Part shown: positions 16,277 through 25,991 of the stretch, piece after piece
How positions within the stretch are numbered: the first letter of the stretch is position 1
Layout: every line of letters begins with the position of its first letter
Origin: Bordetella hinzii LMG 13501
GTDB lineage: Bacteria; Pseudomonadota; Gammaproteobacteria; Burkholderiales; Burkholderiaceae_B
Length of the DNA: 64,000 nt
Assembly (NCBI RefSeq): GCF_001548475.1
Contig: NZ_LRUJ01000001.1
Span: 1-64,000 of the forward strand
Direction: 5' to 3'
Notes under the pieces: generated by a model
Told to the model about the DNA's origin: nothing
The model's database searches: none
The model's input: the letters and a program-made list of their open reading frames with translations, nothing else
Program-made: the position numbers and the translations under genes

Positions 16277-17752
16277 ATGCGTTGGCTGTTGGCAATGATC
16301 AAGCACGAAACCAATACCTTCTCCCCCGTGCCCACGCCGCTTGCGCGGTTTTTCCGCGGCAATCCGGAAATCCTGTCGGGCGAGCGCGCCATCCGCGCCT
16401 ATGAGAACACCGACAGCGGCCTGGGCGGCTATATCGAGGTGGCGCGGCGCGAAGGCGCCGAGATCGTCGTCCCGGTGGCGGCCGAATCCTGGCCCAGCTC
16501 GCCCACCGACGCGGCCACCTACGAAAAACTCTGCGGCCTCATCCTGGACGAAGTCCGCCAAGGCGGCTACGACGCCATCCTGCTGGATTTGCACGGCGCC
16601 ATGGTCGCCGAGGGCGTGGAGGATGCCGAAGGCCAGCTGCTCAAGCGGCTGCGCGAGATCGACCCGCGCACGCCGGTGGGCGTGACGTTGGACATGCATG
16701 CCAACATCTACGACGACATCATCGCGAACGCCAATGTCGTCACCGGCTTTCACACCTATCCGCACGTCGACATCCGCGAAAGCGGCGTGCGCGCCGCCGA
16801 TGTCATCGTGCGCATGCTCAAAGGCGAGATCAAGCCCGTGATGCGCTGGGGCAACGTGCCCATGCTGCCTCACATCATGTGCCAGGGCACGCATGCGGAT
16901 CCCAACAAGTCGCTGCAGGCGCGCTGCATCGAGCTCGAGCGCGGCGAGGTACTGGCCGCCTCGGTCTTCGTGGGCTTTCCGCACGCCGACATCCGCGAGG
17001 CCGGCCTGTCGGCCGTGGTCTGTACCGATGACAACGCCCGCGCCGCCGAGCAGTATCGCGACGAACTGCTCGACGCCGCCTGGACGCGCCGCGCGCAATG
17101 GGTCTTTCATCCCGAGCCCCTGGAGCCGACCATCGCGCATGCCAAGACGCTGACCGAAGGGCCGGTCATTCTCCTGGACCACTTCGACAATACCGGCTCG
17201 GGCGGCACCATGGACACCACCGCCGTGCTGGCCGAGATCTTGCGCCAGGGCCTGGAGAACGTGGCTTTCTATGCCATCTGCGATCCGCAGGCGGCCGAAG
17301 AAGCGGCCGCCGCCGGCGTGGGCAAGACCCTCACACTGACGCTGGGCGGCAAGGTGCCCATGCCCGCCCTGAAGGTGCGGAGCGGACCGCTCACCGTCAC
17401 GGGACGGGTCAAGCTGGTCTTTGACGGTGTCTACCTCAACCGCGGCCCCATGTACCGCGGCGTGCGCAACGACACCGGCCTGACCGTGGTGCTCGACACC
17501 GGCAAGGTGGAGATCGTCATCGTCTCGCGGCACCAGGAGCCCTTCGACATCAACTGCCTGCTGTCGGCCGGCATCGACCCGCTGCAGAAGCGCTATGTGG
17601 CGTTGAAGTCGCGCGTGCACTGGCGCGCGGGCTTCGCCGAGATGGCGCGCGCCATCATCGAATGCACCGGCGTGGGCGTGACGACCTCGGACTACAGCCA
17701 GATCGAATTCAAGCACGTCAGGCGGCCGATCTACCCGCTGGATATGATGTAG
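16277..17752 (+). CDS. M81-family metallopeptidase (MlrC-like), second copy
   Basis: A 491-aa M81/MlrC-type protein with MIKHETNTFSPV at residues 7-18, LLDLHGAMVAEG, LDMHANIYDD, HTYPHVD and the central LDHFDNTGSGGTMDTTA segment. AAGGAG sits about 8 nt before the ATG. It is clearly divergent from the first M81 protein (the shared blocks are short), so the two copies probably differ in substrate rather than being a recent duplication. It closes the importer gene run. Catalytic ligands of M81 are mostly His/Asp in the blocks quoted (family knowledge). Confidence 0.9.
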   Translation: MRWLLAMIKHETNTFSPVPTPLARFFRGNPEILSGERAIRAYENTDSGLGGYIEVARREGAEIVVPVAAESWPSSPTDAATYEKLCGLILDEVRQGGYDAILLDLHGAMVAEGVEDAEGQLLKRLREIDPRTPVGVTLDMHANIYDDIIANANVVTGFHTYPHVDIRESGVRAADVIVRMLKGEIKPVMRWGNVPMLPHIMCQGTHADPNKSLQARCIELERGEVLAASVFVGFPHADIREAGLSAVVCTDDNARAAEQYRDELLDAAWTRRAQWVFHPEPLEPTIAHAKTLTEGPVILLDHFDNTGSGGTMDTTAVLAEILRQGLENVAFYAICDPQAAEEAAAAGVGKTLTLTLGGKVPMPALKVRSGPLTVTGRVKLVFDGVYLNRGPMYRGVRNDTGLTVVLDTGKVEIVIVSRHQEPFDINCLLSAGIDPLQKRYVALKSRVHWRAGFAEMARAIIECTGVGVTTSDYSQIEFKHVRRPIYPLDMM

Positions 17753-17768
17753 GCGCAAGGCCCCGCGC

Positions 17769-17808
17769 TATACTGCTTCGGGTTTACCCTTGCCGCGGCG
17801 CGGCAAGG
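17769..17808 (+). promoter_or_regulatory. Possible -10 box and 9-bp hairpin upstream of first DUF945 gene
   Basis: GCTATACT (TATACT at 17769-17774) is a good -10 box; the same octamer recurs upstream of the second DUF945 gene (TATACT at 19425-19430). No convincing -35 was found for either. CCTTGCCGC / GCGGCAAGG (17788-17796, 17800-17808) forms a tight stem that would lie in the 5' leader. Confidence 0.35.
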
Positions 17809-17849
17809 CGGCCGGCGCGGCTGGCGCCAACAACCCGACGAGGAAAGAC

Positions 17850-19292
17850 ATGAAAAAAGGCGTGGCGATAGGCGCTGGCGTGGTCGTAGTGGTGGCGGGC
17901 GCCTGGCTGGGAGGCACCTGGTATACCGGCCAGCGCATCGCCGATGACAGCCAGGCACGGCTGGACCAGGTCAATGCCTACCTGGCCGCCACCTATCCCG
18001 GCACCGGCCTGCAAGTCGAGCAACTGTCTTTCACGCGCGGCTTCTTCTCCACCCAGGCCCGCTATGGCCTGACGGCCACGGCCCTGCCCGGCAGCCCCCT
18101 CAAGCCGGGCGAGCGCCTGGAATTCGATGCCCGCGTGGACCACGGGCCGCTGCCGGCCGGCGCCCTGGCCCGCGGCCACTTCCTGCCCGCCATGGCCTTC
18201 GTGCACACCGAGATGGCCGACACCGACACGGCCCGGCCTTTCTTCGCGGCGGCCCAGGGCAAGAATCCCCTGCTCACCGATATGGTGCTCAAGTATGGCG
18301 GCGGCGCCTCGCTGCGGGCCGAGGCCGCGCCGCTGCAATGGGCCGAACCCAAGGTGGATTTCGGCGGTGCGCGATTCGAGGGCGACATCGGCAGGAATCT
18401 CGGCAGCCTCAAAGGCCGGCTGCAGGCCAAGCCCATCGCCATCCTGCTGCCCAAGGACGAGCACTTGCCCGCCACCCAGGTCAGGCTGGGCGACAGCGTG
18501 GCCGACGTCGACAGCAAGCTGGGCCAGTCCGGCTACCAGACCGGCACGAGCAGCCTGCATATCGACCGCGTCGAAATCCTTCCCCAGGACGACAGCGGTT
18601 CCTGGCTGAGCGAAGACATCGCCTACAAAGGCCTGGTGACCGAGGAAGACCGCTTCCTCAATGGCCAAGTGGATATATCGGCCGGCAAGCTCACGGTCAA
18701 TGGCGGCGCCCTGGGCAGCCAGCAGATCAGCCTGAAGTTCGCGCGCCTGGATGGCCAGAAGCTCAAGGCCGTCAACGAGGTCTATCTGCGCCTGTCCCAG
18801 CAAGCGGCCGAACAGGGCCGCAAGCCCGGCGACTTCAGCGGCGAGCAGACGCAGCAGCTGGCCGAGGCCGCGCTGCCGCTGCTGGCCGACAACCCCACGC
18901 TGACCCTCGACCCCTTTGCCTGGAAGAACGACAAGGGCGAGAGCCGGCTGAGCCTGGCCCTCACTCTGGCCCAACCCGCCGACCGCCAGGCCAAGGGCGT
19001 CGAGCTCATGCGCCAGCTGGTCAAGAACCTGGAGGCCCGGCTGGTGCTGAACAAGCCCATGCTGACGGCCCTGGGCACGACCGTCCTCAAGCTGCAGGGC
19101 AATAGCGAGGAAGAAGCCGCCACGCAGGCCGCGCGCCAGGTCAACAACATCGCCGGCATGGCAATGATGCTCAACCTCGGCAAAGCACAGGGAGACGACA
19201 TCATCGGCACCCTGCAGTATGGCGACGGCAAGCTCAACCTCAACGGCCGAGAAATGCCCACCAACGCGCTGCTGGGTGCCCTGCCCCGCTGA
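17850..19292 (+). CDS. DUF945/YdgA-family protein, first copy
   Basis: A 480-aa protein of the YdgA (DUF945) family. The N-terminus has one hydrophobic segment (about residues 4-20) that can act as an uncleaved anchor or a signal. The family block follows (GTWYTGQRI, then RGFFSTQARYGLT around residues 60-73). Most of the remainder should be an extracytoplasmic beta-rich domain. E. coli YdgA is an inner-membrane/periplasmic protein of unclear role. The ATG at 17850 has GAGGAAAG upstream; the longer ORF adds an implausible basic N-terminus. A paralogue lies 198 bp downstream on the same strand. Function unknown. Confidence 0.82.
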   Translation: MKKGVAIGAGVVVVVAGAWLGGTWYTGQRIADDSQARLDQVNAYLAATYPGTGLQVEQLSFTRGFFSTQARYGLTATALPGSPLKPGERLEFDARVDHGPLPAGALARGHFLPAMAFVHTEMADTDTARPFFAAAQGKNPLLTDMVLKYGGGASLRAEAAPLQWAEPKVDFGGARFEGDIGRNLGSLKGRLQAKPIAILLPKDEHLPATQVRLGDSVADVDSKLGQSGYQTGTSSLHIDRVEILPQDDSGSWLSEDIAYKGLVTEEDRFLNGQVDISAGKLTVNGGALGSQQISLKFARLDGQKLKAVNEVYLRLSQQAAEQGRKPGDFSGEQTQQLAEAALPLLADNPTLTLDPFAWKNDKGESRLSLALTLAQPADRQAKGVELMRQLVKNLEARLVLNKPMLTALGTTVLKLQGNSEEEAATQAARQVNNIAGMAMMLNLGKAQGDDIIGTLQYGDGKLNLNGREMPTNALLGALPR

Positions 19293-19305
19293 TGCCCCGC
19301 GGTGA

Positions 19306-19359
19306 CGCCGCCCGGCATGCCTGGGCGGCGGCGCGATGGCATGCCGCCGCCATCGCGCC
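19306..19359 (+). repeat. Two tandem GC-rich hairpins between the DUF945 genes
   Basis: First stem CGCCGCCC / GGGCGGCG (19306-19313, 19323-19330). Second stem is 11 bp, GGCGCGATGGC / GCCATCGCGCC (19330-19340, 19349-19359). There is no T run after either, so this may be a factor-dependent terminator region or mRNA-stabilising structure. Confidence 0.55.
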
Positions 19360-19490
19360 CCATTCCTCTTGCAATTTGACATGGCTCGTAACCTGACACG
19401 CTACTGTCAGCCGCATGCCCTGGCTATACTCGCCGCGGACCAGACCCCGGCCGCCTTGGCGTGCCGAGTGATTACTCAGGAACACAGAAA

Positions 19491-21371
19491 ATGAAGAAAA
19501 GCGTTGCGATCACCTCTGGCGTGATCATTGTGGGAGCGGGCGCGTGGCTGGGTGCCACGTGGTATACGGGCAAGCGCATCGAAGAGCAGACCCATCAGTA
19601 TCTGGCCCAGGCCAATGAAAAGCTCGCCAACGCCCTGCCCGGCGTGGGTATCCGCATCGAACAGGATCGCTACGAACGCGGTTTCTTCAACAGCCAGGCG
19701 CGCTACACCATCACCTTCACCACCGAGAAGACCGAAGAAGAGAAGACGCCGGTCACCATCGCGGTGGCCAGCAGAATCGAACATGGCCCCTTCCCCGGCG
19801 GCGCGCTCAAGCGCGGCAAATGGCTGCCGCAACTGGCCTTCGTGCATTCCGAGCTGGAAAACAATGAACTGCTCAAGCCCGTCTTCGACATGGCGCAAGG
19901 CAAGCCGCTGCTCTGGAGCGACACCGTGGTGAGCTACAACGGCCAGGCCGACGGCGAGGGCGGCGTGGCCGCGTTGAGCCTGAAGGACGACAACGGTTCG
20001 TTCAGCTTCAGCGGCGCCACCGTCCGCTCCCGCTACGATCACCGCAGCCAGAGCGTCAAGGGCCGCATCGAAGCCGATGCCTTTGTGCTCGATGTCCATG
20101 AGGACGACGAGCCGGTCAAGGCCAGCGTGAACGGCATCGGCGTGGACATCGACAGCCGCATGGGCAAGTTCGGCCTGTCGATCGGCACCTCGGGCATGCT
20201 GGTCAAGTCGCTCGAAGTCACCAGCCCCAGCCTGGAGTCGGCCCTGCGGGTCGAAAACCTCGGCTATGCCATGGACATCACCGAAGACGACACCTTCGTG
20301 GGCGGCAAGGCCGTCTACAAGATCGGCAAGGTCAGCCTGGGCAAGGACGACTTCGGCGGCGGCGAGCTGGCCCTGTCGGTCGCCCACCTCGACGGCCAGA
20401 CCCTGAAGGCCTTCTCCGAAACCTACGGGCAGATGATGCGTGGCCTCATGGCCGCAGGCGAGCCCGACGACGGCCTGAAGGATGAGCAGATCGGATCGCT
20501 GATCGAGAACGGCCGCAAGCTGCTGGCCGGCAACCCCAGCATCGGGATCGACCAGCTGGTCTGGCGCAACGCGGCGGGCGAAAGCCGTTTCGGCCTCAAG
20601 GTGGACCTGACCAAGCCTCAGGGCGACGCCAGCAACGGCGATGACTTCATCCAGGGCGGCGTGGACTTCCTGCAGAAGGCGATCAAGCGCATCGATGCCA
20701 GCCTGCAGATCTCCAAGCCCATGGCCGCCGCGCTGACCGAACAGATCCTGCGCCTGCGCGGCGCCGAGGACGCCAAGCGCGAAGCGGAGGAGTCCATCCA
20801 GGGCATGGCCGGCATGGCCGAGATGATGAACCTGGGCCGCAATGACGGCGACAATATCGTCAGCAAGTTCAGCTATGCCGACGGCCGCGGCGAACTCAAC
20901 GGCAAGGAAGTGCCGGTCAAGGAGTGGCTGGCCGAACTCGCCAGCGCCGGCGGCGGCATGGACGCGGACGAGGCGGAATCGGTCATCGTCGACGAGCTCG
21001 ATCCCGAGATGGTGGCCGGCATCATCGACAGCGCGGGCTATGACTACGGCTACGACGAGAACAAGAAAGTGTTCACGCTCGACGCCGAAGAACTCTCTCC
21101 CACCGAAATCACCGTCGCCCTGGTCTGCGCGCCGGATTGCGGCACGCTGCGCCTGACCGCCGTCTATGGCGACCAGCAAGCCCCTTCGGCCGCCGCGATC
21201 AAGCAATGGAATGCCAGCGAATTCGGCCGCGCTTCGCTGAACAAGCGGGGCAAGGCTGTTCTGCAATACGACATCGACGTCTCCGAGGGCATGGCCCTGG
21301 ACACGGTCCAATCGCTGCTGCAGACTTTCCTGTCGGTGGCGGACGACTTCCCGAACGCGCCCGAGGAGTGA
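19491..21371 (+). CDS. DUF945/YdgA-family protein with C-terminal YbjN-like domain
   Basis: A 626-aa paralogue of the preceding gene. The N-terminal anchor, GATWYTGKRIEE and RGFFNSQARYTIT blocks align with the first copy, and so does the end of the DUF945 part (GMAGMAEMMNLGRNDGDNI versus the matching stretch at 440-465 of copy one). Residues about 501-626 are extra. They read like a YbjN domain: an N-terminal helix with a DYGYDENKKVFTL strand, a Cys pair C-APDC, then IKQWNASEFGRASLNKRGK and LQYDIDVSEGMA, matching the usual YbjN order of WN-x-x-xRF-x-xAYLD and LEMD-x-x-LxGG. The ATG at 19491 is used; upstream codons lack a ribosome-binding site. The role is unknown. Confidence 0.82.
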   Translation: MKKSVAITSGVIIVGAGAWLGATWYTGKRIEEQTHQYLAQANEKLANALPGVGIRIEQDRYERGFFNSQARYTITFTTEKTEEEKTPVTIAVASRIEHGPFPGGALKRGKWLPQLAFVHSELENNELLKPVFDMAQGKPLLWSDTVVSYNGQADGEGGVAALSLKDDNGSFSFSGATVRSRYDHRSQSVKGRIEADAFVLDVHEDDEPVKASVNGIGVDIDSRMGKFGLSIGTSGMLVKSLEVTSPSLESALRVENLGYAMDITEDDTFVGGKAVYKIGKVSLGKDDFGGGELALSVAHLDGQTLKAFSETYGQMMRGLMAAGEPDDGLKDEQIGSLIENGRKLLAGNPSIGIDQLVWRNAAGESRFGLKVDLTKPQGDASNGDDFIQGGVDFLQKAIKRIDASLQISKPMAAALTEQILRLRGAEDAKREAEESIQGMAGMAEMMNLGRNDGDNIVSKFSYADGRGELNGKEVPVKEWLAELASAGGGMDADEAESVIVDELDPEMVAGIIDSAGYDYGYDENKKVFTLDAEELSPTEITVALVCAPDCGTLRLTAVYGDQQAPSAAAIKQWNASEFGRASLNKRGKAVLQYDIDVSEGMALDTVQSLLQTFLSVADDFPNAPEE

Positions 21372-21390
21372 TAGGCGCCCCGCCCCATGC

Positions 21391-21419
21391 AAAACGCGCC
21401 GTGACCCGGCGCGTTTTTC
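21391..21419. terminator. Rho-independent terminator after DUF945-YbjN gene
   Basis: AAAACGCGCC (21391-21400), 7-nt loop, GGCGCGTTTT (21408-21417) followed by T. It has A and T runs on both sides, so it can act for the plus-strand DUF945 gene and possibly for gcvP arriving from the other strand. Confidence 0.88.
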
Positions 21420-21504
21420 TTGCCTCCACGGCGGCGCCCATCGCTTCAGCCGCCGGCAAGGTCCAGGGCGCCTCCCCCGGCGGGAAGGCGCCCGGCAGGC
21501 GGGA

Positions 21505-24378
<2,874 letters not shown>

Positions 24379-24427
24379 GGTGTTCTCGAAAGTCGGGGTG
24401 GGCGCGGACCGGGGCCCGCGCGGCCGG

Positions 24428-24805
24428 TCAGCTGTTGGCGACCGCCTCGTAGCCGGCCGCATCCAGCAGCTTGTCGGCATCGGCGGCATTGGCCGGCTTG
24501 ATCTTGAAGATCCAGGCCGTGAAGGCGGACTCGTTGATCAGGTTGGGATTGGCTTCGAGCGCCTCGTTGAACGCGACGATTTCGCCATCGACCGGGGCGT
24601 AGATGTCGGAGGCCGCCTTGACGGACTCGACCACGCCGGCGGTTTCGCCGGCCTTCAGCGTGGCGCCGACGTTGACGTCGCCCACGAAGACCAGGTCGCC
24701 CAGCTGGTCCTGGGCATTGTCGGTGATGCCGACGACGAAGACGTCGCCTTCGGCCTTGACCCACTCGTGGGAGGAGGTGTACTTGCGATCGGTAGGCAGA
24801 CTCAT
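24428..24805 (-). CDS. gcvH: Glycine cleavage system H protein
   Basis: A 125-aa lipoyl carrier. The lipoylated Lys is K63 in [14 protein letters not shown], in the hairpin turn typical of the family; [19 protein letters not shown] is the conserved N-terminal block. It shuttles the aminomethyl intermediate from GcvP to GcvT and electrons to the lipoamide dehydrogenase (not encoded here). AGGAG lies 6 nt upstream of the ATG. It sits 85 bp downstream of gcvT. Confidence 0.97.
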
Positions 24806-24890
24806 GGGAGCTCCTGGAGAAATCCGGTGATAGGTATTGAAAAAGGTAAGCGCGCCTTGCGCGCGGACAGGCCGCGCGCAAGCTTGGAGT

Positions 24891-25991
24891 TTACGAGTGT
24901 TCGACGGCTTTGCCGTTACGCACGAAAGGCAGCTTGGCCACGGTGGCCGGCACCCACTTGCCGCGGATGTCGACCTCGACCGTGTCGCCCGGCTTGACCG
25001 CCAGCGGCAGGCGGGCGAAGGCGATGGACACGCCCAGGGTGGGCGACATGGTGCCGCTGGTGGTCTCGCCCGGGCCTTCGGCAGTGCGCACCGCCATGTG
25101 GGCGCGCATCACGCCGCGCTCGGCCAGCTTCAGGCCCAGGAAGGCGCAGGGAGTGGCGAATTGCTCCAGCGCCTCGCGGCCGATGAAGCGGCGCGATTCG
25201 TCCTTGAGCGACACCGTCCAGGACAGGCCGGCCTGGTTGGGATGGATGAGCTCATCCATGTCCTGGCCGTAGAGATTCATGCCGGCTTCCAGGCGCAGCG
25301 TGTCGCGCGCGCCCAGGCCGCAGGGACGCACGCCCTGGGCCGCGAGGTCTTGCCAGAAAGCCACGGCCGCGCTTGCCGGCAGCACGATCTCGAAGCCGTC
25401 CTCGCCGGTGTAGCCGGTGCGGGCCACCAGGATGTCCTCGGACAGGCGCGCGGCGGAAAACGGCGCGAGGCCTTCGGTCTCGGCCTGCCAGGCCGGACGG
25501 GCCGCCCAGACCTTGGCGCGGGCACTGGGGCCTTGCACGGCGATCATGGCCAGATCGCGGCGCGGCGTGATGGCGACGTCGAAACGGCCGGCGGCCGCCA
25601 CGCGCGCCATCCAGGCCATGTCCTTGTCGGCCGTGCCGGCATTGACGACCACCCGCCAGCGGTCGGGCGCGAAGTAATAGATGATGAGATCGTCGATCAC
25701 GCCGCCCTGCGGATTGAGCATGCAGGAGTACAGGGCCTTGCCGGGGGTGCCCAGGCGGGCGACGTCATTGGCCACCAGGCGGCGCAGGAAGGCCGTGGCA
25801 TCCGGGCCGGTGACATCAGCGTTGAGCATGTGCGAGACATCGAACATGCCGGCATCCTGGCGCACCGCGTGATGCTCCTCCAGCTGCGAGCCATAGGCCA
25901 GCGGCATTTCCCAGCCGCCGAAATCGACCATGCGGGCGCCGGCGGCCAGATGGGTTTCGGCCAGGGGAGTACGTTTCAAAGAGGCGGACAT
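24891..25991 (-). CDS. gcvT: Aminomethyltransferase, T-protein of the glycine cleavage system
   Basis: A 366-aa folate-dependent enzyme that releases ammonia and forms methylene-tetrahydrofolate. Seen: [20 protein letters not shown] at residues 19-38, [21 protein letters not shown] and [19 protein letters not shown], all signature stretches of GcvT. It is the first gene of the operon, with a tandem glycine riboswitch in its 5' leader. The product links serine/glycine metabolism to the one-carbon pool used by thyA at the left of this window. Confidence 0.97.

Follow-up and report, generated by a model that had tools for sequence, protein, structure and literature searches.

Two neighbouring genes on contig NZ_LRUJ01000001.1 of Bordetella hinzii LMG 13501, here named ORF1 and ORF2, both encode a protein of the DUF945 family, and the second alone continues into a C-terminal tail. 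The question raised by this locus is what this tail is and what it might do on a protein of this kind. Positions below are those of the window, the whole 64,000-nt stretch that was analysed (positions 1 to 64,000 of the contig), and loci and genomes are cited by L and G numbers where they have to be told apart. ORF2 is read here as an inner-membrane-tethered periplasmic protein with a disulfide-bearing YbjN head that would bind a partner, and ORF1 as a duplicate without the head; the probability of this reading is put at about 60%. The features of the pair are as follows.

17850–19292, + strand: ORF1, 480 amino acids (aa), start codon ATG at 17850, DUF945 (PF06097) only, no cysteine
19491–21371, + strand: ORF2, 626 aa, start codon ATG at 19491, fusion of DUF945 and YbjN
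19494–19559, + strand: N-terminal hydrophobic stretch of ORF2, residues 2–23, with Lys2-Lys3 at its start, read from the sequence
19491–20918, + strand: DUF945 domain of ORF2, residues 1–476, by profile match
20919–21002, + strand: acidic linker of ORF2, residues 477–504, by alignment, variable in length among relatives
21003–21356, + strand: YbjN-fold domain of ORF2, residues 505–622, by profile and predicted fold
21126–21128, + strand: codon of Cys546 in ORF2
21138–21140, + strand: codon of Cys550 in ORF2, the probable disulfide partner of Cys546

Both proteins matched the DUF945 profile PF06097 (385.1 bits for ORF1 and 413 bits for ORF2, gathering score 26.8), covering profile positions 1–458 and 1–459 of 460, respectively. 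The domain spans the first 470–476 residues in each, after which ORF2 alone runs on into the linker and the YbjN part. Identity between the two is 36% across ORF1 residues 1–478, and two sequence blocks recur in the pair, TWYTGQRI/TWYTGKRI and RGFFSTQARY/RGFFNSQARY. The preliminary description of this DNA, which had proposed two tandem DUF945 paralogues, was borne out in its reading frames, PF06097 matches and motif blocks, and the two are probably sister proteins of the cell envelope. It had also given only the second protein a YbjN part, at residues 501–626. PF10722 was indeed matched in ORF2 and not in ORF1 and the extra part is present, but it begins at about residue 477 with the acidic linker and the domain proper at residue 505. 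The E. coli DUF945 proteins YdgA and YihF (338.5 and 200.5 bits with a DUF945 profile built here) have frames of 518 and 490 aa without a match to the profile of the fused YbjN domains; ORF2 extends beyond DUF945 by its linker and YbjN part. In E. coli K-12, yihF (b3861; L147) lies directly after dsbA on the same strand.

By its profile match the tail is a real YbjN-family domain. PF10722 (cut-off 22) scored 30.9 bits in the whole of ORF2 (E = 3.5×10−7, residues 505–622) and 34.4 bits in the isolated tail (E = 3×10−8). An AlphaFold2 (AF2) model of the tail, built from 23 sequences, reached a mean predicted local distance difference test (pLDDT) of 79.6 and a predicted template modelling score (pTM) of 0.75, and a full-length model of ORF2 (pLDDT 80.5, pTM 0.63) agreed with the tail fold. 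The top solved match of the tail model was E. coli YbjN (6vu7; Z-score 13.6, 3.0 Å over 120 residues; Foldseek E = 3.1×10−5), next to Erwinia AmyR (5fr7; Z 13.3), the type III chaperone SycT (2bsi; Z 12.9, 2.4 Å over 110 residues) and Deinococcus DR1245 (4h5b; Z 12.8). The YbjN profile match and the YbjN-like fold suspected from the letters were thus both recovered. YbjN proteins and type III chaperones share the predicted fold, and as the fold scores are tied, the tail was assigned to YbjN because of the Pfam match. No convincing relative emerged when the PDB was searched by sequence with the isolated tail; the best hit (E = 0.00097, an antibody-domain chain) held for the whole sequence only, with no single stretch passing. 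ORF2 shares with YbjN, AmyR and DR1245 the Pfam match and the predicted fold, but its domain is fused and probably periplasmic. The class I type III secretion chaperones (SycT, SicP, ExsC) resemble it in fold to the same degree; the ORF2 tail, however, belongs to a larger protein that starts with a hydrophobic stretch, and its gene has ORF1, the MlrC-like gene and gcvPHT as neighbours, with no type III genes immediately adjoining.

A YbjN match was found in 55 of 200 genomes of the family, in 40 of these inside one open frame of 629–718 aa. DUF945 shared that frame in all 40 cases (30 of 30 fetched loci by blastp, the other ten by PF06097 coordinates), and the fusion occurred in 7 of 43 genera. 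Of these 30 loci, 26 had their YbjN part matched by blastp with the window's own tail as query, the remaining four by Pfam. DUF945 itself was present in 160 of the 200 genomes. In genome G113 (L148) the fused YbjN domain was found with the profile built here (59.2 bits) and not with Pfam; the tails of L148:1391–3349 and L070:5860–7920 are both weak with this fused-domain profile, at 59 and 55 bits. Samples of 369 genomes of the class and 249 of the phylum, which overlap, contained no one-frame fusion outside the family. There, YbjN turned up in 17 and 115 further genomes, respectively, and no frame carrying it exceeded 411 aa, which leaves no room for an added DUF945; this frame-length test detects one-frame fusions only and a fusion split between frames could escape it. 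A scan of named records gave 45 loci, 41 of them fusions, all from Bordetella or Achromobacter. The fusion is thus an established architecture that recurs in several genera beyond this genome and is confined to one family in the samples taken. No description of it was found in the open literature, subscription journals, preprints and domain-architecture tables being outside the search. In the Bordetella genomosp. 4 fusion (L075:6001–8121) the DUF945 match is split between frame residues 18–253 and 320–550, which suggests an insertion of about 65 residues within DUF945.

The setting of the fusion is conserved as well. In the window ORF2 has ORF1 and gcvP as direct neighbours and MlrC adjoins ORF1, so that the pair is flanked by an MlrC-like gene on one side and by the gcvPHT genes, on the opposite strand, on the other (named by Pfam). 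Among 20 loci from relatives of Bordetella and from Achromobacter, MlrC lay beside the fusion in 18 and gcvP in 15; at L058, L060, L068, L070, L148 and L164 one or both were absent within the stretch examined. ORF2 is 88% identical to its counterpart in Bordetella pseudohinzii. To its Achromobacter counterparts the fused protein shows 38–41% identity, against 80–87% for the flanking MlrC and GcvP (window positions 16277–25991). The ratio of nonsynonymous to synonymous substitution rates (dN/dS), compared with B. pseudohinzii and B. genomosp. 12, was 0.22–0.28 for ORF1, the DUF945 part of ORF2 and the ORF2 linker with YbjN, against 0.03–0.16 for MlrC and the gcv genes. Both genes are thus maintained by purifying selection, with protein change faster than in their neighbours. 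That the fusion arose by chance or from a frame error was ruled out by the open fused frame in relatives and by this purifying selection. A search for defence-system families found none.

Which kind of YbjN the tail represents was assessed by scoring 89 standalone YbjN domains with the fused-domain profile. They were taken from the own genome, the family, the class, the phylum and E. coli K-12 and form a chosen, non-random set (loci from the class and phylum scans, 40 picked places, L001 and E. coli YbjN). Export was called by a simple home-made signal-peptide rule, for L170 by eye. By these calls the best 14 of the 89, 13 of them rule-positive, are all exported-looking and precede any cytosolic one; L078 (72.5 bits), L180 (71.7 bits) and L079 (61.3 bits) are among them, and 10 of the 14 carry a cysteine pair. 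These best-scoring relatives of the fused domain have a signal peptide and often the cysteine pair, but are unfused, in frames of 151–269 aa. The cytosolic YbjN proteins of the family rank after them, the own genome's second YbjN (L001) scoring 32.9 bits, and E. coli YbjN reached −0.5 bits. Four further rule-positive proteins scored low, at 4.6–18.7 bits. A rank test of the 17 rule-positive proteins against the 72 others gave p = 1.9×10−8, the rows of this test not being independent of one another. In profile score, the exported YbjN branch is the one closest to the fused domain. An exported YbjN had been expected to accompany DUF945, an idea that was given up: 10 of the 14 genomes had no DUF945 match, and of the four with one, three were above the cut-off and one was below it.

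The YbjN tree pointed in the same direction with regard to E. coli. It comprised 79 rows and 139 columns (18 of 31 fused and 61 of 89 standalone domains; L094, L127, L132, L135, L140, L141 and 22 of L095–L124 omitted) and kept 17 open forks. At a split with support 95/86, 51 rows (18 fused, 17 exported and 16 cytosolic, 15 of the last from the family) stand apart from E. coli YbjN and a further 27 cytosolic rows. Because of the score of −0.5 bits and this supported split, on the other side of which the ORF2 tail stands, the fused domain is placed by sequence outside the subgroup of E. coli-type YbjN and AmyR. The second YbjN of the own genome, at L001:1453–1926 (G000:C9), has no signal peptide and no cysteine pair, and its start codon is uncertain. 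The start of the next gene (1923–2882) shares 4 bases with the stop of this one; by Pfam it encodes a PPIC-type peptidyl-prolyl isomerase, the N-terminus of which, as read by eye, is lipoprotein-like.

The ORF2 protein begins with Met-Lys-Lys followed by about 20 mostly hydrophobic residues, and the full-length AF2 model has a helix at residues 3–48, of which residues 1–18 have a pLDDT below 50. This stretch would act as a membrane anchor in N-in/C-out orientation. The linker between the two profile matches measures 20–59 residues in 44 relatives, and its residues 486–497 have a pLDDT below 50 in ORF2. All 44 fused proteins (one species fetched twice) have exactly two cysteines in the YbjN domain, separated by 3–8 residues, and none in the DUF945 core. 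The family sample, which overlaps this set, likewise shows a pair in each of its 31 fused domains. In ORF2 they are C546 and C550, its sole cysteines and the pair already remarked on in the tail, and they sit in a turn between predicted strands 539–545 and 552–559. Since the pair is lone and never lost, C546 and C550 probably form a disulfide in an oxidising compartment. It lies at another place than the C28–C31 bridge of AmyR, which is described in the loop ahead of the first strand (PMC5398634). From the N-terminal hydrophobic stretch together with the lone cysteine pair we infer that the YbjN tail is periplasmic.

In the proposed arrangement the N-terminal anchor would hold a beta-rich DUF945 body at the inner membrane, from which a flexible acidic linker would lead to the disulfide-bearing YbjN-fold domain. 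The literature describes the folds of YbjN and type III chaperones as dimers that bind proteins, and YbjN proteins as acting through protein–protein interaction (PMC5398634; PMC3575483); it is for this reason that ORF2 is read as a membrane-tethered periplasmic binder. The Pseudomonas protein BacA, of the same fold, is presented as a chaperone or regulator (PMC10948618). Most likely the YbjN head would act as the fold does elsewhere, as a module shaped like a type III chaperone that dimerises and binds peptides or proteins, and on its acidic leash it would hold or recruit a periplasmic partner beside the DUF945 body.

The origin of ORF1 was approached with a DUF945 tree of 67 rows, in which 10 of the 30 loci L003–L032 were used and 22 loci were omitted (near-duplicates, L075 with its insertion and the short L077). 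The YbjN-less tandem copies and one non-tandem copy of G006 (L162) grouped inside the fused clade, the 42-row clade having support of 92/79. The fused label needs two changes on this tree, most simply one gain and one loss, and fused rows as a single clade were rejected (p-AU 0.0007). A second DUF945 gene within the flank examined (at most 6 kb) was found at L033, L034, L035 and L055 only, among the 41 named fusion loci. ORF1 is therefore probably a derived tandem duplicate that lost its YbjN domain: the fusion would first have existed in single copy, would have been duplicated in part of Bordetella, and its upstream copy would then have lost YbjN. Separate pairs of DUF945 genes, with no YbjN in either, were seen at L150, L152, L153 and L154 (genus g4 of the same family), at a locus other than that of the fusion.

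Several observations weigh against a tethered periplasmic binder. The topology of ORF2 was read from its N-terminal sequence only and the signal-peptide rule is home-made; the Z-scores of 12.8–13.6 are tied, so that YbjN and type III chaperones are inseparable by fold alone. In the YbjN tree a cytosolic YbjN group of the family (L001 type, 16 rows) shares its side of the split with the fused rows, which form no clean clade there and whose label needs two changes. Most of the 14 genomes examined have an exported YbjN but no DUF945. No established function was found for DUF945, and a full alignment search returned no PDB sequence relative of it below E = 0.29. The window's YbjN domain also has the second longest end branch listed in the tree (1.32) and could be losing its function. 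This last point leads to the main rival, that the tail has no client and serves only dimerisation or stability, or is decaying. The low Pfam score fits it (30.9 bits here, 61–72 bits in the five best fused relatives), as do the failure of Pfam to detect the domain in G113, the probable loss of YbjN in the ORF1 lineage, the variable linker length and the position of the window's domain among the most diverged. Both cysteines, however, are kept in 44 of 44 proteins, and dN/dS of the linker with YbjN (0.23–0.26) is no higher than that of the DUF945 part (0.24–0.27), and a passive or decaying tail is considered unlikely, though it is the strongest of the competing explanations.

It is less probable again that DUF945 forms a lipid-handling groove of TULIP or AsmA-like type, with the YbjN domain as an adaptor docking it to partners. 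In the DUF945 model a single anchor helix is followed by many long strands, and there is a weak resemblance to P47 (5wix; Foldseek E = 6.7×10−3, probability 0.44) and JlpA (3uau; Z 9.6, root-mean-square deviation (rmsd) 6.9), but most other matches of this region are outer-membrane barrels with a large rmsd, and hydrophobic alternation is weak in three long strands (252–301). The alignment of DUF945 with AsmA and YdbH by hhalign gave a probability of at most 2.2%, in a comparison whose positive control, AsmA against YdbH, also failed (1.2%), so that it weighs neither for nor against this reading. The preliminary description had gone further and carried the motility and surface phenotypes of YbjN over to the fusion. 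The tail does match Pfam YbjN and the fold of E. coli YbjN, and ybjN mutants of E. coli are reported as altered in motility, fimbriation and biofilm (PMC3181261). Against such a role in motility and surface regulation stand the −0.5 bits of E. coli YbjN with the fused-domain profile, the supported split of 95/86, the 14 exported-looking proteins as nearest relatives, a cysteine pair placed elsewhere than C28–C31 of AmyR, the compartments, which would differ, and the separate YbjN without signal peptide that the genome already has (L001). A motility link for the fusion is accordingly held to be very improbable. The idea that the fusion ties two families together holds in so far as DUF945 is joined to a YbjN-fold domain; this domain, however, belongs to another, probably periplasmic, YbjN branch. 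A periplasmic, partner-binding YbjN head stays the preferred reading of ORF2.

The upstream regions of both genes were compared, and three elements were located.

17767–17774, + strand: GCTATACT, −10-like element before ORF1
19388–19392, + strand: GTAAC box, conserved ahead of fused genes, with its first base 37 nt upstream of TATACT
19423–19430, + strand: GCTATACT, −10-like element before ORF2

A shared sequence had been noticed ahead of both genes; it is the octamer GCTATACT, present exactly twice in the window, before ORF1 and ORF2 (expected 0.20; 1 of 100 shuffles reached 2). All 51 upstream regions examined (44 fused and 7 YbjN-less, ORF1 included) carry TATACT no more than 140 nt from the start codon. 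Among the controls, 16 of 1850 random 140-nt windows contained it, as did 94 of 5100 upstream regions of 200 nt after shuffling. The octamer probably serves as −10 element in two separate promoters, each gene appearing from these upstream sequences to have its own. A scan for the sigma-70 consensus gave no full promoter site (0 against 0.5 expected). An RpoS-type promoter, considered for the likeness of GCTATACT to a sigma-S −10 element, was dropped, the best RpoS match in the own genome scoring 281.4 bits, below the cut-off of 378.7.

The GTAAC box starts 36–38 nt before TATACT in 42 of 44 fused genes (exceptions L070 and L075). It is absent before ORF1 and occurs within 45 nt in one of seven YbjN-less genes, with 6 of 1850 random 45-nt windows as control; the box was picked post hoc from the alignment and the rows are related, so that the counts are not independent tests. 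The composite GTAAC-N31/32-TATACT (19388–19430 in the window), mostly followed by a GC-rich stretch (CGCCGCGGG), precedes fused genes L033–L072 in two genera, and this additional conserved box before the fused gene could bind an activator. The 4.99-Mb own genome contains a single exact match to the composite, the one ahead of ORF2. Five relatives likewise have one match each ahead of their fusion; an additional one was seen in G075, and the backward control in that genome matched once too. A wider GTAAC-TATACT regulon was ruled against by this single genome match and the one match per relative, the extra copy in G075 being at control level.

A bolder form of the preferred reading is put forward tentatively, as possible but doubtful: the type III chaperone/YbjN fold would have a branch in the periplasm, and in one Burkholderiales family this branch would be permanently tethered to a DUF945 inner-membrane scaffold, as a client-presenting chaperone with its own activator-dependent promoter, DUF945 being half of a periplasmic client-handling pair and ORF1 its chaperone-free paralogue. 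Because the profile of one YbjN branch misses another (−0.5 bits), the YbjN label alone does not justify assigning a protein the function of E. coli YbjN. For DUF945 and exported-looking YbjN no assigned function was found, and the conserved fusion places both in one polypeptide and one compartment in one family. It thereby recasts the question of DUF945 function as the question of what the tail binds.

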